DNA of 64,000 bases from Candidatus Saccharimonadales bacterium (GTDB lineage Bacteria > Patescibacteriota > Saccharimonadia > Saccharimonadales > Saccharimonadaceae), in NCBI GenBank assembly GCA_035697325.1, contig DASSDB010000002.1:217232-281231 (forward strand). Reading direction: 5' to 3'. The notes beneath the pieces are model-generated. The model was not told the DNA's origin. It saw only the letters and a list, made by a program, of their open reading frames with translations, and did no database searches. Positions within the stretch are counted from its first letter, which is position 1; each line of letters starts with the position of its first letter. The position numbers and the translations under genes were made by a program. This document shows positions 11,125-42,691 of the stretch, piece by piece.

Positions 11125-11478
11125 ATGGCTGAACAGCGGTTTGTGCCGGGTACGCCGATCGATCCGAGCGTTCCGCTTATAGTGGGTGTGTTTCATGAGG
11201 AATGGCTACGGGTGGTGTACCCCGAGATCAAGGAAGTTGCCACCAGTCAGCGGACGTGGGAGGGAAAGACATTCATCGTCTATCCCGTTCACGAATACGG
11301 CGTAACCCGCAAGCTTCTAAAAATGCTGATGGCGACGACTAACGAAGAAACGGCGGCAGCCAAAAACTATCCGCATCCGATACATGACGAGAAAGGTAGG
11401 CTTATCGCGGTCGTCGTTCACCAAGTGTCATCCATGATTTACGACGGATTGTACACGTACCGCATGCTCATGAAGTAG
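11125..11478 (+). CDS. GC-rich orphan gene 2, unknown
   Basis: A protein of 117 residues with GAGG 6 bases before the ATG; TAAAAT at about 11083-11088 is a likely -10 box, giving a leader of about 30 bases. It is a soluble alpha/beta protein with GVFHEEWLRVVYPEIKEVA and KLLKMLMATTNEETAAAK. It shares a bidirectional hairpin terminator with the convergent DUF4419 gene. Function unknown. Confidence 0.7.
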   Translation: MAEQRFVPGTPIDPSVPLIVGVFHEEWLRVVYPEIKEVATSQRTWEGKTFIVYPVHEYGVTRKLLKMLMATTNEETAAAKNYPHPIHDEKGRLIAVVVHQVSSMIYDGLYTYRMLMK

Positions 11479-11489
11479 CCTAAAACAAA

Positions 11490-11530
11490 CTTCGGTGGTG
11501 CTCCTTCTAATTGACGGAGCACCACCGAAG
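11490..11530. terminator. Long perfect-hairpin bidirectional terminator
   Basis: CTTCGGTGGTGCTCC pairs perfectly with GGAGCACCACCGAAG (15 bp, 11-base loop). It lies between orphan gene 2 (+) and the predicted hammerhead (-) and is also the last element of the minus transcript. No long T-run follows, so it may act mainly as a 3' end stabiliser. Confidence 0.75.
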
Positions 11531-11598
11531 CCGATAATCGCTTTTCGTCCTTTTGGACTCATCAGTACGAATACGCATTTGTAGAAGCAATTTGCGGC
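11530..11598 (-). ncRNA. Predicted type III hammerhead ribozyme 1
   Basis: Read on the minus strand. The core CTGATGAG is followed by stem II (GTCC, loop AAAA, GGAC) and then CGAAA. Stem III pairs 11536-11543 with 11585-11592 (8 bp, one G-U), then after a 2x2 internal loop 11530-11533 with 11595-11598. Stem I is TAC/GTA and AAT/ATT around GCGT with one mismatch. The cleavage triplet reads UUC; cleavage is predicted between 11584 and 11583. All conserved core bases are present. It lies 72 bases past the stop of the DUF4419 gene. Confidence 0.85.
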
Positions 11599-11629
11599 AG
11601 AGTGAAGTGAATTTTCGCTTCACTCTGCC
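11596..11629. repeat. 12-bp perfect hairpin directly 5' of the hammerhead
   Basis: GGCAGAGTGAAG at 11596-11607 pairs with CTTCACTCTGCC at 11618-11629. On the minus transcript it sits just before the cleavage site, so a cleaved mRNA would end 12 bases after a stable stem. Its inner arm overlaps the outer 4 bp of hammerhead stem III, so the two pairings compete. Confidence 0.8.
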
Positions 11630-11669
11630 GACCTGAGCATGCAACTCAGGATTTTCCTCTCAGATCACG

Positions 11670-12776
11670 TCACACCTCGGCGACGGCGAATCCCAGTCGG
11701 GGGACCAGGAAGCTGCCTTCGAAGCCCACGTTGGTGATGCCGGCCCCGAAAGCCATGGGGTACTTCGTGCCGAAGTAGTCCCAGGTGAACGGAACCTTGC
11801 TGACGTGCGTGGAGAACTGGTTGGTCTTGTAGCCTCCCCAGCCCTTCTTGGCGAACGACCTCCAGTCGAATTCCTTCTTGAGCTGCGGACCCTCTTTGGT
11901 CTGGATGTAGGCGAAGAACGCCGTGATCCATCCCGAGACGTGCGGTCCACCGGAACCGTCCTCGTACTTGTAAATCGAGCGCCAGAAACCCTCATTGGGT
12001 GTGGCGCCTCCGGCAGTCTCGGCGATCTGCTGCAACACGGGTAGGAGGTCACTGAAGTAGCCTGCCAGCCCGTGGAAGTCGCGTGCCAGCATCTCCGTGC
12101 GGAAGTAGAGATCGTTCCAGTCGGTCGGTTCTCCCTCCAGCTGAATGCGCGGAATACCGCACCTGGTGGACATGACGTACTCGTAGAACGGGCTCGCCGC
12201 GTCCATCAGAGCGATCAGTAGCGTGGTCTCATCCTCGATGGTGGAGGTCGAGAATCGCGGCAGGAAAAGATCGGCTGTGTAGTCGGTGATCTTCTCCCTG
12301 AGCGGATCACGGAACAGGTTGATGGCCCGTCCCCATTCTGAAGGTGCGTCGTAACGCAAGGAGTCGTCGCGGACCTCGATGGTCTGCTTGGCCTCCGGCG
12401 TGTCGGTGAACAGACGTGCATAGTCCGACGAGTTGTCCTTGATGAGCTGGGCGACCTCGTGGACGATCATGTACCACAAGACTTCCGGTCGAAGGCTCAG
12501 CGCGGTGTGTGATGCGTACGCCTGATGAATCGCTTGGATTCCCAGGCTGGCACTAGCCGAACCAAAGGCGGCTTCGTTGTAGTCGCCGAAATCGTCGGGC
12601 TGGTTGACGAAGTACGTTGTGTCGCTGCTGTTGTAGTGGAATCGTGCCGGGTTACCCAGCGCGGACTTCAAGAAGACCTCGTTGCCCGTCTGTTCGACGC
12701 GAGTTGCTTCTTGGGTGCGGTGAGAACTCCAACGATCGTAGGAGGGCTCGACGGGGGTGTCGATAACGACAGTCAC
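11670..12776 (-). CDS. DUF4419 family protein (orphan gene 3)
   Basis: A protein of 368 residues starting at GTG 12776, preceded by AAGGAG at 5 bases. It matches the DUF4419 pattern: EVLWYMIVHEVAQLI, FSTSTIEDE, STRCGIPRIQLEGEPTDW, FWRSIYKYEDGSGGP and VSGWITAFFAY. The family is known from eukaryotes and scattered bacteria and has no established activity. Codons are strongly C/G-ending. The 3' end holds, in order, a small hairpin (11632-11650), a 12-bp hairpin, a predicted hammerhead and a 15-bp hairpin. The palindrome CTGTAT-AA-ATACAG at 12793-12806 overlaps the promoter. Transfer from a high-GC bacterium is likely. Confidence 0.85.
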   Translation of the reverse strand: MTVVIDTPVEPSYDRWSSHRTQEATRVEQTGNEVFLKSALGNPARFHYNSSDTTYFVNQPDDFGDYNEAAFGSASASLGIQAIHQAYASHTALSLRPEVLWYMIVHEVAQLIKDNSSDYARLFTDTPEAKQTIEVRDDSLRYDAPSEWGRAINLFRDPLREKITDYTADLFLPRFSTSTIEDETTLLIALMDAASPFYEYVMSTRCGIPRIQLEGEPTDWNDLYFRTEMLARDFHGLAGYFSDLLPVLQQIAETAGGATPNEGFWRSIYKYEDGSGGPHVSGWITAFFAYIQTKEGPQLKKEFDWRSFAKKGWGGYKTNQFSTHVSKVPFTWDYFGTKYPMAFGAGITNVGFEGSFLVPRLGFAVAEV

Positions 12777-12883
12777 CAGAACTCCTTCACGAGAAGTACA
12801 CTGTATAAATACAGAGGTCGTTCCGAGAGGAAAGACCTGTATATTATAGAATGATTTGTAATAAAAATCAATAAATTCTAATC

Positions 12884-12959
12884 TGGTGGGGGCGGTTGGA
12901 ATCGAACCAACTACCAAGTGGTTATGAGCCGCCTGCTCTAACCGATGAGCTACGCCCCC
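12884..12959 (-). tRNA. tRNA-Met (anticodon CAT), CCA encoded
   Basis: A 76-base cloverleaf: acceptor GGGGGCG/CGCCCCC, D-arm AGCTC...GAGC, anticodon arm with CTCATAA, T-arm with GGTTCGATTCC, and encoded CCA. The 5' half resembles elongator tRNA-Met. CAT tRNAs can also be tRNA-Ile2 after lysidine modification, so Met is the likelier but not proven identity. Confidence 0.9.
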
Positions 12960-13471: not shown

Positions 13472-13510
13472 AAGAAAAAACGACTACCGAAAGGGTAATC
13501 GTTTTTTCTT
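13472..13510 (+). terminator. Intrinsic terminator
   Basis: AAGAAAAAACGACTACC pairs with GGGTAATCGTTTTTTCTT around GAAA; the T-run is part of the stem. It closes the FtsL/DivIC-like gene and abuts the 3' end of the minus-strand tRNA. Confidence 0.85.
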
Positions 13511-13587
13511 GGTTGCGGGGAGAGGATTTGAACCTCTGACCTCGTGGTTATGAGCCACGCGAGCTGACCAGACTGCTCCACCCCGCG
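13510..13587 (-). tRNA. Initiator tRNA-fMet (anticodon CAT), CCA encoded
   Basis: A 78-base cloverleaf beginning CGCGGGGTGGAGCAG, the usual initiator 5' end, with the C1-A72 mismatch typical of fMet. The anticodon loop is CTCATAA, the T-arm contains GGTTCAAATCC, and CCA is encoded. The anticodon stem ends in TGG/CCA rather than the usual three G-C pairs. Confidence 0.92.
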
Positions 13588-23264: not shown

Positions 23265-23594
23265 TTATACCTTCTGGAAATAAAAGGTGTTGTCGGCCTG
23301 CATGGTGAATTCGACGCCGTATTGCTCAGTGAGGCCGGGTGTTGTGAGGCTGGTCAGGATCTCCGCGTGATTGACGACCCCGCGCTTGGTTAGCGTGACA
23401 GCCACTTGCGCCATTGCCTCCAAGCCTTCGGCCTTTTTCTGAGCCTCTTCGTACATGCTCCTCACAAGCTCGTTCGAGCTCATGGTGGCGCGCGCCGAAT
23501 CGAGGTTATCCGTGCTGGAGTTCGGCGAAGAGCCGGTGTGGGATGCTTGCTCATCCAATCGGTGCCAACGGCGCCTTCTGAACCTTTCGGGCAT
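23265..23594 (-). CDS. GC-rich orphan gene 8, unknown
   Basis: A protein of 109 residues whose ATG overlaps the stop of orphan gene 9 (TAATG), so the two are translationally coupled. The N-terminus is Arg-rich (RFRRRRWHR) and then Ser/Thr-rich; the C-terminal half is helical and then beta (TFYFQKV). Codons strongly favour C or G at the third position. No family recognised. Confidence 0.65.
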   Translation of the reverse strand: MPERFRRRRWHRLDEQASHTGSSPNSSTDNLDSARATMSSNELVRSMYEEAQKKAEGLEAMAQVAVTLTKRGVVNHAEILTSLTTPGLTEQYGVEFTMQADNTFYFQKV

Positions 23595-23911
23595 TACTTC
23601 TCCTTCTTCTTGGCCACCTGGATCATGTAGATCGCGATGGTCTCACCGTGGACCCTGTACACGACATTGACGCTGCCGACCACCTCGTCTTCGTAGCTCG
23701 GCAGCACGAGGCATCCGGCATAGTACTCGCTTTTGGTGACGATCGTACCCATGTCGTGCGGGTCGAGCTGGTTGTTCTCGAGGTAGTCGAGAAGCCGGTC
23801 GCAGAATTCGTCCCGCGCCTCCTTACCACTCCCCTTGGCCTCGAGAGTCTCGAGCCCTCGGCCAATAGCCGGTTCGTCGATGAATTGCGCTACGTAACGA
23901 ATGTCACTCAC
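23594..23911 (-). CDS. GC-rich orphan gene 9, unknown
   Basis: A protein of 105 residues starting at GTG 23911, chosen because GGAGGT lies 9 bases upstream. It is acidic with a basic end (VAKKKEK), and the core VVGSVNVVYRVHGETIAIYMI is probably a beta-hairpin. It is the first gene of a two-gene minus unit with orphan gene 8, divergent from orphan gene 10. The shared region 23912-24039 is AT-rich and holds both promoters. Confidence 0.65.
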   Translation of the reverse strand: MSDIRYVAQFIDEPAIGRGLETLEAKGSGKEARDEFCDRLLDYLENNQLDPHDMGTIVTKSEYYAGCLVLPSYEDEVVGSVNVVYRVHGETIAIYMIQVAKKKEK

Positions 23912-24039
23912 GAAAGAAGAACCTCCAATCAATCCGACGACTACAACATTATAGTTTTAACATGGTATGTTGTATTGGTCAAGTTAGCTATGCTATGATG
24001 ACGATGCTACTTTTTGTACTGCTACGATGAGGAGAAATC

Positions 24040-24573
24040 GTGAACAGGGAAATCGGGTTTGAAGAATTCAAGGAGCGGGCCAAAGCCAGAGATTTCAACC
24101 CCCGCAACGTGACGGTGATGTGGAAATGGCTCGCGGAACACCGGGGAGGCTACGAGCTGCGAGATTACGTCCTGACAGACTGCACGATCCCTCTGGAGAC
24201 CATTCTGAGTTTTACTCCGTCTATGGCGGAAGGCGCCAAAGGGGTAAGCCTGGTTTTGCTTAAGGTATACAGGTTTGTCTATCAGAGTCTGCTGGACGAC
24301 CCTTCACCTCTCCCCGATCATGACGAAGAGGTAACCCGGGAGAATCTGAGGAAGTTCGCACCCGACGTGCACCCCGGAACGATTACATCAGCGTGGCATG
24401 AGTTTCGTCGAGCGATGAGTGGTTTGTCGGAGGAGCAGCCCCTTATCGAACAGCTCGAACTGTTTTGCGGACGCATGGAGGACAGGGACAACTGGCCTAT
24501 AGCGTTCAAGCCGGCGTATGACAAGCTGCTGCGTGACTGGCTGAAATCCCTCCAGTCGCAGCAAGGCAAGTAG
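24040..24573 (+). CDS. Orphan gene 10: protein with two Ala-Trp (AW) modules
   Basis: A protein of 177 residues starting with GTG after GAGGAG. Two segments follow the same pattern: FEEFKERAKARDFNPRNVTV then MW near the start, and TRENLRKFAPDVHPGTITS then AW near residue 115. The end ELFCGRMEDRDNWP...DKLLRDWL matches the end of the gene at 38271 (LETFCELMEDENNWP...DSLLRLWL). The module looks like helix-turn-helix, so nucleic-acid binding is possible but unproven. A conserved two-hairpin RNA element follows the stop. Confidence 0.75.
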   Translation: MNREIGFEEFKERAKARDFNPRNVTVMWKWLAEHRGGYELRDYVLTDCTIPLETILSFTPSMAEGAKGVSLVLLKVYRFVYQSLLDDPSPLPDHDEEVTRENLRKFAPDVHPGTITSAWHEFRRAMSGLSEEQPLIEQLELFCGRMEDRDNWPIAFKPAYDKLLRDWLKSLQSQQGK

Positions 24574-27697: not shown

Positions 27698-27782
27698 CTG
27701 CTATTGCATTTATTTATTATTTGTTTTATTATATCGATTAGCTCCCTCGTGGAGACACCTAACACCTGAAGGGGTGACTATA

Positions 27783-28184
27783 GTGTTTGAGCTCAGTGGC
27801 TCGTTCGATTCACTGGACCCGGAGAAGCGGCGCAAGCTCGCGGATTACCTGGAGGTGCGCAACGAGTACCTCGAGATGACGATCAAGCTCAACGAGCTGC
27901 GCATCCGGACGCTCGTGGAACCGACGGCCGCCAACCAGGACGCCGTGAACAACTACGCCTCCGCGGTGCTCGCACCGATGCGTGCGAAACACAACGAACT
28001 GGCGTCGAACCTGGTGAGAGACGCGGTCAACGTGGAGAGCCTCAAGGGCATGCTTCCCATGCTGGCCATGGCGCTCACCAGCTCGATCGACGTGCCGCTC
28101 CTGCTGACGACGCTCAACGTCGATCCCGACATGATCGAGAAGATCGTCGGCGAGGCGTCGTCCTTCTTCAAGAGGGGCATGTGA
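27783..28184 (+). CDS. GC-rich orphan gene 11, unknown
   Basis: A protein of 133 residues. GTG 27783 is preferred because GAAGGGG lies about 7 bases before it; GTG 27774 is the alternative. The codons are almost all C/G-ending, an extreme contrast with the AT-rich gene before it. The protein is helical and acidic, with LEVRNEYLEMTIKLNELRIR as a likely coiled coil and a hydrophobic stretch near residues 85-105. It has its own AT-rich promoter and hairpin terminator. Confidence 0.7.
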   Translation: MFELSGSFDSLDPEKRRKLADYLEVRNEYLEMTIKLNELRIRTLVEPTAANQDAVNNYASAVLAPMRAKHNELASNLVRDAVNVESLKGMLPMLAMALTSSIDVPLLLTTLNVDPDMIEKIVGEASSFFKRGM

Positions 28185-32750: not shown

Positions 32751-33086
32751 CTATGCGTACTGCGCTGTGAGGGCCGTCACCTTCTCCTGGTGATGCTTCA
32801 CGATCGACCACAGCTCTGAGCACTCGGGGTTGGTTCTGAGGTATTCGAACGCCACCTTCAGTCGCTCAACCAGCTCTTGTTCGTGGATAGCGTTGTACAG
32901 AAGTTCGAACGCCCCCGCGCCGTACTTGGCGATCATGAAAGCGGAGGCGACCAGCATGAACTCAAGATCCACTGTGTTGGAGATGTCCAGAAGGTGCCGG
33001 TTTCCCAGGGCATCGAAATCTTTGAACCGGACAGTCACCCGTCCTGGATGCACATGAGAAGGATAGGCGCGCAATACTTCGTACAT
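32751..33086 (-). CDS. GC-rich orphan gene 12, unknown
   Basis: A protein of 111 residues. ATG 33086 is chosen because AAAGGTG lies 7 bases upstream; TTG 33089 is the first possible codon. The N-terminal 45 residues are beta-rich (GRVTVRFKDFDALGN) and the rest helical (FELLYNAIHEQELVERLKVAFEYL). Codons are C/G-rich relative to flanking genes. No family recognised. Confidence 0.65.
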   Translation of the reverse strand: MYEVLRAYPSHVHPGRVTVRFKDFDALGNRHLLDISNTVDLEFMLVASAFMIAKYGAGAFELLYNAIHEQELVERLKVAFEYLRTNPECSELWSIVKHHQEKVTALTAQYA

Positions 33087-33244
33087 CAATCTTCACCTTT
33101 GTCCGACTAGTAGGGTGTAATGTATGGTACTGGTTTTGTATGGATTTTGCAATTACCTGGTGAATTTAATTGGAGCAATGGTAGAGCTAGCCTCCTGAGA
33201 TAGCCAAATAGTTTAAGTAAGGACCTGGTATAATAAAGCTCAAT

Positions 33245-36591: not shown

Positions 36592-36627
36592 GTATTGAAC
36601 CTAAGTTTAGTCATGAAAATTCTGAGT

Positions 36628-36676
36628 GCTTTTCGTCCTTTTGAACTCATCAGCATAGACACACATCTACGTAAGC
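36628..36676 (-). ncRNA. Predicted type III hammerhead ribozyme 2
   Basis: On the minus strand CTGATGAG is followed by stem II (GTTC, loop AAAA, GGAC, with one G-U) and CGAAA. Stem III is 4 bp (36628-36631 with 36673-36676). Stem I is 6 bp, CGTAGA with TCTATG (one G-U), around TGTGTG. The cleavage triplet is UUA, with cleavage predicted between 36672 and 36671. It lies 94 bases past the stop of the minus gene at 36771. Stem III is short, so activity is a little less certain than for copy 1. Confidence 0.8.
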
Positions 36677-36764
36677 GGTGATGACAAGCAGACAATAGTT
36701 TGAGAGACAGGCAAGGAGCCTGCCTGGGTAAATTCCCAAACTACTCCCTGCCTGCCATCACCGC
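36675..36764. repeat. Branched hairpin directly 5' of hammerhead 2
   Basis: On the minus transcript GCGGTGATG and GCAGGCAG pair with CTGCTTGT and CATCACCGC (17 bp with two G-U), then TAGTTTG with CAAACTA. Two inner hairpins follow: GGG/CCC and CAGGCAGG/CTTGCCTG. The stem ends at the ribozyme, so the cleaved mRNA would end almost flush with a strong structure. Confidence 0.75.
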
Positions 36765-36770
36765 AGTTGA

Positions 36771-37325
36771 TTACCCCATGGCGTTCAGCCCGGCGCGCCC
36801 CATCAGGCGGACACCCTCTGGGGAGAGGTGGCCACTCGCCTCGATGAACGAGCCGGAGTCGGCCATCACGCCGTCCGGCTTCGTCATCTCGTCACGACAG
36901 AGCGCGATGATGGCATCGGCCATCCAGCCCGAGATCATCTCGTCGAAGACGGCCTGCACGCCACCGAATGCGACGACGAGACCGTCGCGGACGACACTGC
37001 CGCCCCACTTGGTCATGCCAGGCACGAACAGGTGAGGTGCCTGCTGCTGGACGACGCGGCTCGGCAGCCCTGTCCTCCAGGACACGTAGGCCTTGGCCTC
37101 GGCGATGGTGGTGTACTTCTCGTTTTCCGCTCCGCCCACGACTTCGGCGTACAGGACAGCATCCGTGGGGAGTGCTTCCTGGCCGACGAAGAGCTTGGTC
37201 GGATCGAGCACGAAGATCGTTCCCTCGTGCTTGTTCGTGACATCCATCTGCGCGGCTGTGCCGATGGCGGGGACGATCATGTCCCATGCAGTCGCACAGA
37301 TTCCACGGGTCAACCCTGTGTACAT
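36771..37325 (-). CDS. GC-rich orphan gene 13, unknown
   Basis: A protein of 184 residues from ATG 37325. A TTG at 37370 is in frame but lies in a long hairpin. The core KWGGSVVRDGLVVAFGGVQAVFDEMISG has a loose likeness to GlcG/HbpS-type proteins, not enough for assignment. Codons are almost all C/G-ending. The transcript has an unusual 5' hairpin (37354-37405) and a 3' branched hairpin with a hammerhead. It lies next to a tRNA gene, a common entry point for acquired DNA. Confidence 0.7.
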   Translation of the reverse strand: MYTGLTRGICATAWDMIVPAIGTAAQMDVTNKHEGTIFVLDPTKLFVGQEALPTDAVLYAEVVGGAENEKYTTIAEAKAYVSWRTGLPSRVVQQQAPHLFVPGMTKWGGSVVRDGLVVAFGGVQAVFDEMISGWMADAIIALCRDEMTKPDGVMADSGSFIEASGHLSPEGVRLMGRAGLNAMG

Positions 37326-37405: not shown

Positions 37406-37496
37406 ATAATGTCTGCTTGTCAAAAAACGCCTTCGGAGCAGGTGTGCTCACGAAAGCTGAATATATTTTATCATAAAAACTGAAAATGTCTATACT

Positions 37497-37573
37497 TGGT
37501 AGCAGCGACTGGGATTGAACCAGTGACCTTAGGCTTATGAGTCCTACGCTCTAACCAACTGAGCTACGCTGCC
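37497..37573 (-). tRNA. tRNA with CAT anticodon, possibly tRNA-Ile2
   Basis: A 77-base cloverleaf: acceptor GGCAGCG, D-arm AGCTCAGTTGGTTAGAGC, anticodon loop CTCATAA on stem TAGGA, T-arm with GGTTCAATCC, and encoded CCA. G1 pairs with U72. As an initiator and an elongator-like Met tRNA occur at 13510 and 12884, this third CAT tRNA may be the lysidine-modified Ile tRNA needed by TilS (gene at 43603). The assignment needs comparison. Confidence 0.88.
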
Positions 37574-38270: not shown

Positions 38271-38807
38271 GTGGTGAAAACTACTCGGCCTGGTGGCAGG
38301 CGACTCCGTGGAGTCGATTTTGTCGAAAGGGCGGCTGAGTTCGGCTACGAATCTGGGTCGGCGCGTCAGGCATGGCGAACCGTCGTGCAAACGATCAAGA
38401 AAGCCACATACAGCGTGTCGGCTGCGTACGACGAATCAGTTACGCGAGTTCAGCTCACTGACTTGCTGAAGTCCAAGCCGGCGCAGGTAAGCGAAGAAAA
38501 GTGGCAGCTCATAGTCAAGGTGAGCGAACGGCTGCTTCGTACGGTGACTCGCAAGGAGTTCCACGAGTTTGGCGCTGCGGTGGATGGCGTGACACCAACT
38601 GCTGTCGGCCAGGCGTGGAATCTGTTTATGAGGACCGCATCGAGCATGGGCGAATTGCCCGCCAGGACGCAGAACACCGATGAGGTGGAGCTCAAGCATC
38701 TCGAGACCTTCTGCGAGTTAATGGAGGATGAGAACAACTGGCCTCCGAACTACGGGCCGACTCACGACTCTCTTCTCCGTCTCTGGCTGACTTTCATCAC
38801 GCAGTAG
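38271..38807 (+). CDS. Orphan gene 15: protein with two AW modules
   Basis: A protein of 178 residues starting with GTG after GGGAGG; a second GTG follows at once. The N-terminus is basic (KTTRPGGRRLRG). Modules are VDFVERAAEFGYESGSARQA then W near residue 36, and VTRKEFHEFGAAVDGVTPTA then AW near 115. The ending LETFCELMEDENNWP...LLRLWL matches the gene at 24040, so the two are paralogues. Its RNA element starts 6 bases after the stop. Confidence 0.75.
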   Translation: MVKTTRPGGRRLRGVDFVERAAEFGYESGSARQAWRTVVQTIKKATYSVSAAYDESVTRVQLTDLLKSKPAQVSEEKWQLIVKVSERLLRTVTRKEFHEFGAAVDGVTPTAVGQAWNLFMRTASSMGELPARTQNTDEVELKHLETFCELMEDENNWPPNYGPTHDSLLRLWLTFITQ

Positions 38808-38813
38808 TGATCT

Positions 38814-38869
38814 CCGTGGTCAGGCCTCCTAGCGGGAAGCTGATCAACGCCAACTACGGGAATGTTGGC
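38814..38869 (+). ncRNA. Two-hairpin RNA element, copy C
   Basis: Hairpin 1 pairs GGTCAG (38818-38823) with CTGATC (38840-38845, one G-U), then a G/AAG internal loop and a short inner stem. Hairpin 2 is GCCAAC/GTTGGC around TACGGGAAT. It lies between orphan gene 15 and the promoter of the next gene. Confidence 0.78.
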
Positions 38870-38950
38870 ACCTACCTTGCGATCATTGATTATTTTAAGC
38901 TATATGATATAATATTTTTCGGTAGAAACTCGACAAGGAGAGGAGCGACA

Positions 38951-39565
38951 ATGTCGTTCGAAAAACTGATCCAGGACATCGTCGCCAAGACGGCGGGTGG
39001 TGCCCAGATCGTGGTCTACGCACCGGTGACTGTCTACGTCAGTACCCCTGCGATGGCGCCGGACCCCCTGGGGCAGGTGCTCGACGTGAGCAAAAACCCC
39101 AAGTCCGTGCCCGCCAAGGGTGACGCGTGGAAGGCGGCCGAGAACCAGGCTCAAGCGGCCCGGGACGAGCAGGAGCGCAAGGCTGCGTTGGCCGAAGCGT
39201 TGACTGAGGCGAGGAAGCGTACCGCCGAAGGTAAGGGCAAGCAGCCGGAATCTCCGGAAGCCGATGTCGCCACGCCGATGGCGGAAGCCAACTTCCGCGG
39301 TACGGTCGGTGAGCAGACGCTCGTCGACAAGGCCCTGAACCAGGAGCTCAAGGGAGCCGTGGGTCACCGCCTGTGGGAACTTCTGAACACCAGCAGGGAA
39401 CTGCGCGCCTTCTGCGCGGATCTTGGTGTCGACTTTCCGTTGCTCGGCAAGAACGGCATGTTCCGCCGGGCCGACCTGAAGTCGCTGGCCCGACGGGACG
39501 GCATCACTCGTGTCAAGGGCTTCGGCACCCGGAGTCAGGCTCTCCAACTCCTGAAGTCGCTGTAA
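38951..39565 (+). CDS. GC-rich orphan gene 16, unknown
   Basis: A protein of 204 residues from ATG 38951 with AAGGAGAGG upstream; the frame is open further back but the TATAAT-like promoter (about 38905-38913) excludes it. The middle (about 60-105) is a charged Ala/Glu/Lys coiled coil. The C-terminal domain includes ELRAFCADLGVDFPLLGKNG and MFRRADLKSLARRDGITRV. Codons are nearly all C/G-ending. A 17-bp perfect hairpin terminates it. Function unknown. Confidence 0.7.
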   Translation: MSFEKLIQDIVAKTAGGAQIVVYAPVTVYVSTPAMAPDPLGQVLDVSKNPKSVPAKGDAWKAAENQAQAARDEQERKAALAEALTEARKRTAEGKGKQPESPEADVATPMAEANFRGTVGEQTLVDKALNQELKGAVGHRLWELLNTSRELRAFCADLGVDFPLLGKNGMFRRADLKSLARRDGITRVKGFGTRSQALQLLKSL

Positions 39566-42400: not shown

Positions 42401-42691
42401 TTACTCCGCCACAATGCGGAGTTTACCGTCCTCCTCCTGAAGGATGAACTGACGCCGATCGTTGAGCTTCACTTCGTCGAGGTGAATCTTGTTGTCCACG
42501 AGTTTGGCAACGAGCAGAAGTTCTGCGGGTCGTTCACCATTCTCGTAGTAAAGAACGCCGAAGCTGCTGCCATCCTCGGTCTTTTCCTCGAGAAACTTCC
42601 TCGCTTCGTCGAGGCTCGAGCACGTGGCCTCGTTGCCGTGGTTTCCCAGTAGGAGGGAGACGACAGTGTAGCGGGTTGCAGGGTTTGACAC
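42401..42691 (-). CDS. GC-rich orphan gene 18, unknown
   Basis: A protein of 96 residues starting at GTG 42691 with AAGGAG 7 bases upstream. It is alpha/beta and acidic: SLDEARKFLEEKTEDG, then a beta-rich C-terminus RRQFILQEEDGKLRIVAE. Codons favour C and G. It has its own leader and a large terminator. No family recognised. Confidence 0.7.
   Translation of the reverse strand: MSNPATRYTVVSLLLGNHGNEATCSSLDEARKFLEEKTEDGSSFGVLYYENGERPAELLLVAKLVDNKIHLDEVKLNDRRQFILQEEDGKLRIVAE

Follow-up and report, generated by a model that had tools for sequence, protein, structure and literature searches.

Hammerhead ribozymes placed after single genes in Saccharibacteria: a putative role in forming mRNA 3' ends

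Results

Two hammerhead units in one window

The window, by which we mean the whole stretch of 64,000 nucleotides of Candidatus Saccharimonadales DNA analysed here, carries a DUF4419 gene followed by a type III hammerhead ribozyme (copy 1) and, 25 kb away, a second hammerhead (copy 2) behind another gene (Table 1). A sequence-only reading of the first locus had named the DUF4419 gene and the CPR-type genome, and both assignments hold. For the origin of the DUF4419 gene there are distant matches only, in plasmid and phage records, and the copy-2 cargo protein has no Pfam match. The copy 1 unit has its own promoter-like site, a predicted hairpin at the transcription start and a local hairpin at its 3' end rather than a pair of 5' and 3' elements.

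The candidate DUF4419 promoter lies directly after a tRNA-Met gene. Three tRNA-Met (CAU) genes are found on the minus strand (12884-12959, 13510-13587 and 37497-37573), two of them directly upstream of hammerhead units. A tRNA was present within 1.5 kb at 1 of the 29 other loci first examined, and we therefore do not count it as part of the unit.

Read along the minus strand from 11592 to 11535, copy 1 is AAUUGCUUC / UACAAAUGCGUAUUCGUA CUGAUGA GUCC AAAA GGAC GAAA AGCGAUUA, the slash marking the predicted cleavage site, and its parts follow in the order U16.1-C17, stem I, CUGAUGA, GUCC-AAAA-GGAC and GAA-A15.1. All core positions of a hammerhead are present; stem III is open and stems I and II are closed by loops, the arrangement that defines type III. 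Cleavage is predicted 86 nt past the DUF4419 stop codon, exactly where the earlier reading had placed it. The paired stem I of that reading is correct only in part: 3 bp and 3 bp do form beneath a GCGU loop, but an A.C mismatch separates them, and the active fold lies 2.8 kcal/mol above the computed minimum owing to a competing stem I hairpin. Because of the mismatch and this better hairpin, cleavage of copy 1 may be slower than that of its relatives, in which stem I is a clean 7 bp with 99.3% of cells paired. Stem III, likewise, was described as 8 bp plus 4 bp. The 8 bp stand, but the outer extension (GCCG/CGGC) is probably not the relevant helix, since its bases close a competing 13-bp hairpin immediately 5' of stem III. 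The 189 nt around this hairpin fold with a z score of -8.4, the entire copy 1 3' UTR folds at -36.3 kcal/mol, and a hairpin ending at stem III in this manner is what relatives tend to retain. Past the ribozyme, a terminator-like hairpin with the tail UUUGUUUU (within 11479-11489) is common to the copy 1 unit and the convergent gene 11125-11478; a simple terminator scan did not call it.

When the 58-nt segment of copy 2 is folded by computation, the active structure comes out as the minimum. In a longer fold the ribozyme is not the minimum, which counts against a function at the 3' end. Its 3' element, IR-R, has for one and the same stretch a strong local partner (19.7) and a strong distal one (16.0), as is also seen in several relatives (L035, L046, L066 and L074, among others).

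Table 1. Coordinates of the two hammerhead units in the window
Feature	Position	Strand	Basis or remark
DUF4419 gene	11670..12776	minus	PF14388, E 5e-58; inferred GTG start after GAAGGAG; GC3 0.79
Sigma-70-like promoter of DUF4419 unit, TTGATT-17-TATAAT	12843..12871	minus	consensus match only
Putative hairpin at predicted DUF4419 transcription start, ACAGGUC...GACCUCUGU	12811..12840	minus	read from sequence
Second small hairpin, between DUF4419 stop codon and hammerhead	11632..11650	minus	folds
13-bp hairpin adjoining stem III on the 5' side; predicted to be 3'-terminal in the trimmed mRNA	11595..11630	minus	folds
Hammerhead ribozyme copy 1, type III	11535..11592	minus	R1 72.8 bits, E 2.5e-24; RF00008 26.1 bits
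Copy 1 stem III	11585-11592 with 11536-11543	minus	
Copy 1 C17	11584	minus	predicted cleavage 11584/11583
Copy 1 stem I	11566-11583	minus	
Copy 1 CUGAUGA	11559-11565	minus	
Copy 1 stem II	11547-11558	minus	
Copy 1 GAAA	11543-11546	minus	
Terminator-like hairpin downstream of copy 1	11490..11530	minus	sequence and fold
Promoter-like site of copy-2 unit, TAGACA-16-TAAAAT	37465..37492	minus	putative; read from sequence
Hairpin at predicted copy-2 transcript 5' end, GCUUUCG...CGAAGGC	37429..37457	minus	-17.3 kcal/mol
5' element IR-L (TGACAAGCAGACA)	37410..37422	minus	in copy-2 unit 5' UTR; complementary to IR-R
Copy-2 cargo gene, about 184 aa (start uncertain)	36771..37325	minus	GC3 about 0.8
3' element IR-R (TGTCTGCTTGTCA)	36682..36694	minus	9 nt 5' of copy 2 cleavage site
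Hammerhead copy 2	36623..36680	minus	R1 62.3 bits, E 2.4e-20
Copy 2 predicted cleavage	36672/36671	minus	after GCUUA
Copy 2 core	36653-36631	minus	

Covariation and spread of the ribozyme

A check with the Rfam type III model (RF00008) had been proposed for copy 1, and its outcome depends on the model. RF00008 scores the copy at 26.1 bits (E 0.037 in 8 kb), under the gathering score of 48.5, so that automatic annotation misses it; this cut-off is an annotation threshold and no property of a ribozyme. A covariance model made from an alignment of 66 related hammerheads of other genomes, with the window copies left out (R1), gives the scores of Table 1. In the window R1 matches copies 1 and 2 and nothing else, and the complete genome search (1.03 Mb, 99.9% complete) returns the same two. 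RF00008 itself finds nothing in 14 well-known genomes. Pairing is kept in 91% of base-pair cells across the 66 relatives, and two-sided changes occur at 16 of 19 base pairs, values reached by none of 500 shuffles. The core columns are invariant in these relatives (C3 U4 G5 A6 N7 G8 A9, G12 A13 A14, A15.1-U16.1 and H17), and both window copies have them. The loop I region of the relatives is mostly UGNGN and loop II mostly NAAA, a conserved composition that is suggestive of tertiary docking between the two loops.

How widespread is the ribozyme? With up to 3 mismatches allowed, the core motif is present in 51 of the 295 genomes examined from the order (Saccharibacteria), a sample that takes in incomplete genomes, with 1-9 copies in each carrier; reversed, the pattern matches none of the same 295. 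This contrast, the full core and the R1 score together bear out the identification of copy 1 as a type III hammerhead. R1 matches are found in 38 of 286 genomes across the phylum. Among the matches listed for a stricter pattern are numerous IMG/VR viral contigs and, from CPR, Kaiser-, Nomura-, Shapiro- and Amesbacteria besides many further records. Since discovery relied on a pattern biased towards copies whose stem II is close to that of the window hammerheads, those that diverge further are under-counted. The earlier expectation that a CPR hammerhead would be an unusual, isolated case does not survive: it is a recurring CPR device, with a second copy in the window itself. On one Parcubacteria contig (L108:2480-6481), nine same-strand hammerheads stand within 4 kb, each with a similar CCCGCTGTTC-like lead-in. 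Several viral contigs (L218, L224, L288 and L324 among them) carry a number of hammerheads each, often after a common hairpin (GTGTCTTCAAAGACAC), as if hairpin and hammerhead formed a repeated 3'-end module.

Position after genes and pairing of the message ends

An ORF of 60 aa or more lies upstream on the same strand at 66 order loci, and at 49 of these its stop codon precedes the cleavage site by 50-150 nt. A helix adjoining stem III with a score of at least 8 is present at 36 of 71 order loci and, among the matches listed, at 82 of 127 other genome-contig loci and 121 of 159 viral loci, compared with 8-23% at shifted control positions. The stretch from -26 to -6 relative to the cleavage site is, in addition, complementary to an upstream stretch at 31 of 73 order loci, over about 11-17 nt (~13 nt), and five shifted control stretches show this at 0-2 of 73. 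The sequence of the 3' element varies from locus to locus (TGTCTGCTTGTCA, GTCTCTCCCTGATT, TCACACTTTCTTTTGTC, GAGTCTACTTATTAA and others), and the complementarity is retained.

The 5' partner lies mostly within the 5' UTR of the gene. Upstream of it stands a -10-like box in 25 of 32 cases (control 3 of 32), and also a hairpin with a mean energy of -10.3 versus -5.2 kcal/mol (p 3e-5). All three hammerheads of a sister genome (G295) have a 5' partner (18.0, 19.4 and 15.0). Over 76 nt around the ribozyme one of the three shares 84% identity with copy 2, yet the genes are unrelated: related 5' and 3' frames surround unrelated genes. Where the non-viral repeats mismatch, the sense RNA mostly has G.U, which, in small numbers, is only suggestive of pairing at the RNA level; the pooled G.U count is confounded by viral palindromic hairpins. 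Neither strong local nor strong distal pairing is found at 18 of 70 order loci, and this counts against a general function at 3' ends.

Cargo genes and codon usage

Hammerhead-linked genes are mostly unrelated, with six pairs only in an all-against-all BLASTP. At the order loci their mean GC3 is 0.69 against 0.475 for neighbouring ORFs, and the linked gene exceeds its neighbours in 48 of 50 tested (Wilcoxon p 3.7e-13); the ORF calls are mechanical, and individual starts may be wrong. The two cargo genes of the window use Phe TTC at 0.97, Lys AAG at 0.95 and Leu CTG at 0.47, as against 0.52, 0.50 and 0.08 for the ribosomal/EF-Tu region of the same genome. High expression in the bacterium's own cell was rejected as the cause of this bias, since it is absent from the ribosomal, EF-Tu and DnaK genes. 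GC-richness is not inherent to the architecture either, as an AT-rich genome (L080, GC 0.31) has it with AT-rich cargo. One hammerhead-linked protein, from a minus-strand unit at 8322 in L035, has an RNA polymerase alpha C-terminal-like domain (PF03118, E 1.2e-12), and the GC-rich window ORF 38807-39565 resembles it by eye.

Small GC3-rich ORFs that lack a hammerhead also occur in the window (23265-24573, 27774-28184, 32751-33089, 38271-39565 and 42401-42691), with the codon usage of the hammerhead-linked genes, and several have long 3' hairpins with no evident U-tract. With two copies only, and none at the majority of the window's GC-rich genes, the device is not needed by the entire GC-rich class, which also counts against a function at 3' ends.

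Discussion

The ribozyme structure, its covariation, its position after genes and the complementarity between message ends, as computed here, favour a role for the hammerhead at mRNA 3' ends. We propose that an mRNA with a single gene receives its 3' end from a type III hammerhead, which would trim it during transcription and leave the end sealed, and we regard this model as probable. In this model, the gene would be transcribed from its own promoter, and RNA polymerase would read through the 3' hairpin, which lacks a U-tract, and then through the ribozyme; at copy 1 transcription would continue to the terminator-like hairpin just beyond. The copy 1 ribozyme would cut after C11584, so that the mRNA retains a short tail with a 2',3'-cyclic phosphate beside a stable helix, and the downstream fragment, with its 5'-OH, would be thrown away. 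The helix at the end would be the local 13-bp hairpin in copy 1. In copy 2 and roughly 40% of related loci the 3' end could also form its helix with the 5' UTR, and both ends would be sequestered. Ends made of a helix and a tail with a 2',3'-cyclic phosphate should, as a general rule, resist polyadenylation and 3' exonucleases, and the purpose would presumably be a long-lived mRNA whose 3' end is resistant to both. Transcription, cleavage in the cell and the effect on stability are what we infer from the sequence. Taken together, the recurrence after single genes whose message ends can pair looks like systematic trimming and sealing of certain mRNAs.

Could the paired elements be a switch instead? 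The IR-R of copy 2 would then pair either with the left arm of its local hairpin or with the 5' UTR element, and the winner would set the folding and cleavage of the ribozyme and, with them, the fate of the mRNA. That copy 2 and several relatives have both partners speaks for a switch, but copy 1 and many other loci have a single pairing option, no ligand-binding domain is seen and hammerhead cleavage is normally constitutive; we judge a switch improbable. Only slightly less credible is a DNA-level explanation, in which IR-L and IR-R are the transposon-like terminal inverted repeats of mobile cassettes that carry GC-rich genes of foreign origin, and the ribozyme does no more than process foreign transcripts. 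The gene is indeed flanked by inverted repeats, its GC-rich cargo is mostly unrelated between loci, some genomes have tandem clusters and prophage hammerheads are known (PMC3088659). Simple terminal repeats, however, leave unexplained why the outer side of IR-L is occupied by a promoter-like box and a start hairpin and that of IR-R, directly adjacent, by the ribozyme, and for the same fixed outer arrangement of promoter hairpin and ribozyme we disfavour integron attC sites or transposon ends. The repeats, moreover, vary between loci while remaining complementary, their non-viral mismatches (in small numbers) are mostly G.U in the sense RNA, and no transposase was identified in an unsystematic look.

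A circular RNA per unit, made by a pair of hammerheads or by a hammerhead and an RNA ligase as in retrozymes and viroid-like RNAs, is very unlikely. Tandem same-strand hammerheads do occur in some genomes (L032, L033 and L108) and end pairing would bring the termini together, but the window has one hammerhead per gene and the genome two, 25 kb apart, and a unit with its own promoter-like site should have a 5' triphosphate. The ligase RtcB (PF01139), present in 9 of 14 controls, was not found in the source genome, which itself makes circularisation unlikely. That the copies are non-functional relics or chance folds can practically be dismissed, for against the score below the Rfam cut-off and the stem I mismatch of copy 1 stand two intact cores, E values of 2.5e-24 and 2.4e-20 from an independent model and strong covariation across relatives.

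What might end-sealed messages be for? Within the model of hammerhead-trimmed mRNA, we can only speculate that they are meant to last or to work elsewhere, for example by translation in the GC-rich host cell of the epibiont. The source bacterium is tiny and probably parasitic. The native AT-rich promoter, the self-trimmed, paired ends and the foreign-looking codon usage led us to this idea, which is a long shot; acquisition of foreign genes alone accounts for the codon usage equally well.

If our model is true, it describes a bacterial system of mRNA 3'-end formation based on a self-cleaving ribozyme and a panhandle. The function of bacterial hammerheads is an open question (PMC6155905), and a ribozyme that recurs in CPR bacteria at a fixed place after genes makes it testable. 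The hammerhead is also a search handle for GC-rich, mostly unrelated and uncharacterised genes of Saccharibacteria. In the open-access literature, which was the scope of our search, no paper joins ribozyme and Patescibacteria, or hammerhead ribozyme and Saccharibacteria. Hammerheads as such, and hammerheads next to prophage genes, have been described before; the 3'-end architecture in CPR was not found in that literature.

How does this architecture compare with known systems? With the Rfam family (RF00008, Hammerhead_3) the CPR hammerheads share the full catalytic core, three helices with an open stem III, closed stems I and II whose loops may be able to dock, and an NUH cleavage triplet. They differ in their short, uniform stems (stem I of 7 bp with mostly UGNGN-type loops, stem II of 4 bp with AAAA as its most common loop), in a score under the cut-off and in their place at the 3' end of CPR genes and not in viroid or satellite RNA. 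With retrozymes and viroid-like circular RNAs (PMC4918200) they have in common RNA ends set by a hammerhead; here, in contrast, there are no paired hammerheads per unit, the unit codes for protein and the genome lacks RtcB. Prophage hammerheads are a third group to compare. Perreault et al. (2011) found these flanking single genes and suggested processing into single-gene mRNAs (PMC3088659), and de la Pena et al. (2017) described small non-conserved ORFs beside bacterial hammerheads and called their role open (PMC6155905). Both groups of ribozymes stand between genes or beside small non-conserved genes, with mRNA processing as the proposed function, and the hammerheads of the window stand after genes. 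The IMG/VR contigs found here have the same stem sizes as CPR hammerheads and an adjoining hairpin; many of them, unlike the CPR units, carry a repeated local hairpin. What sets the CPR units apart from prophage hammerheads is that they are chromosomal single-gene units with their own promoter-like sites, about 40% of which have complementary 5' and 3' ends.
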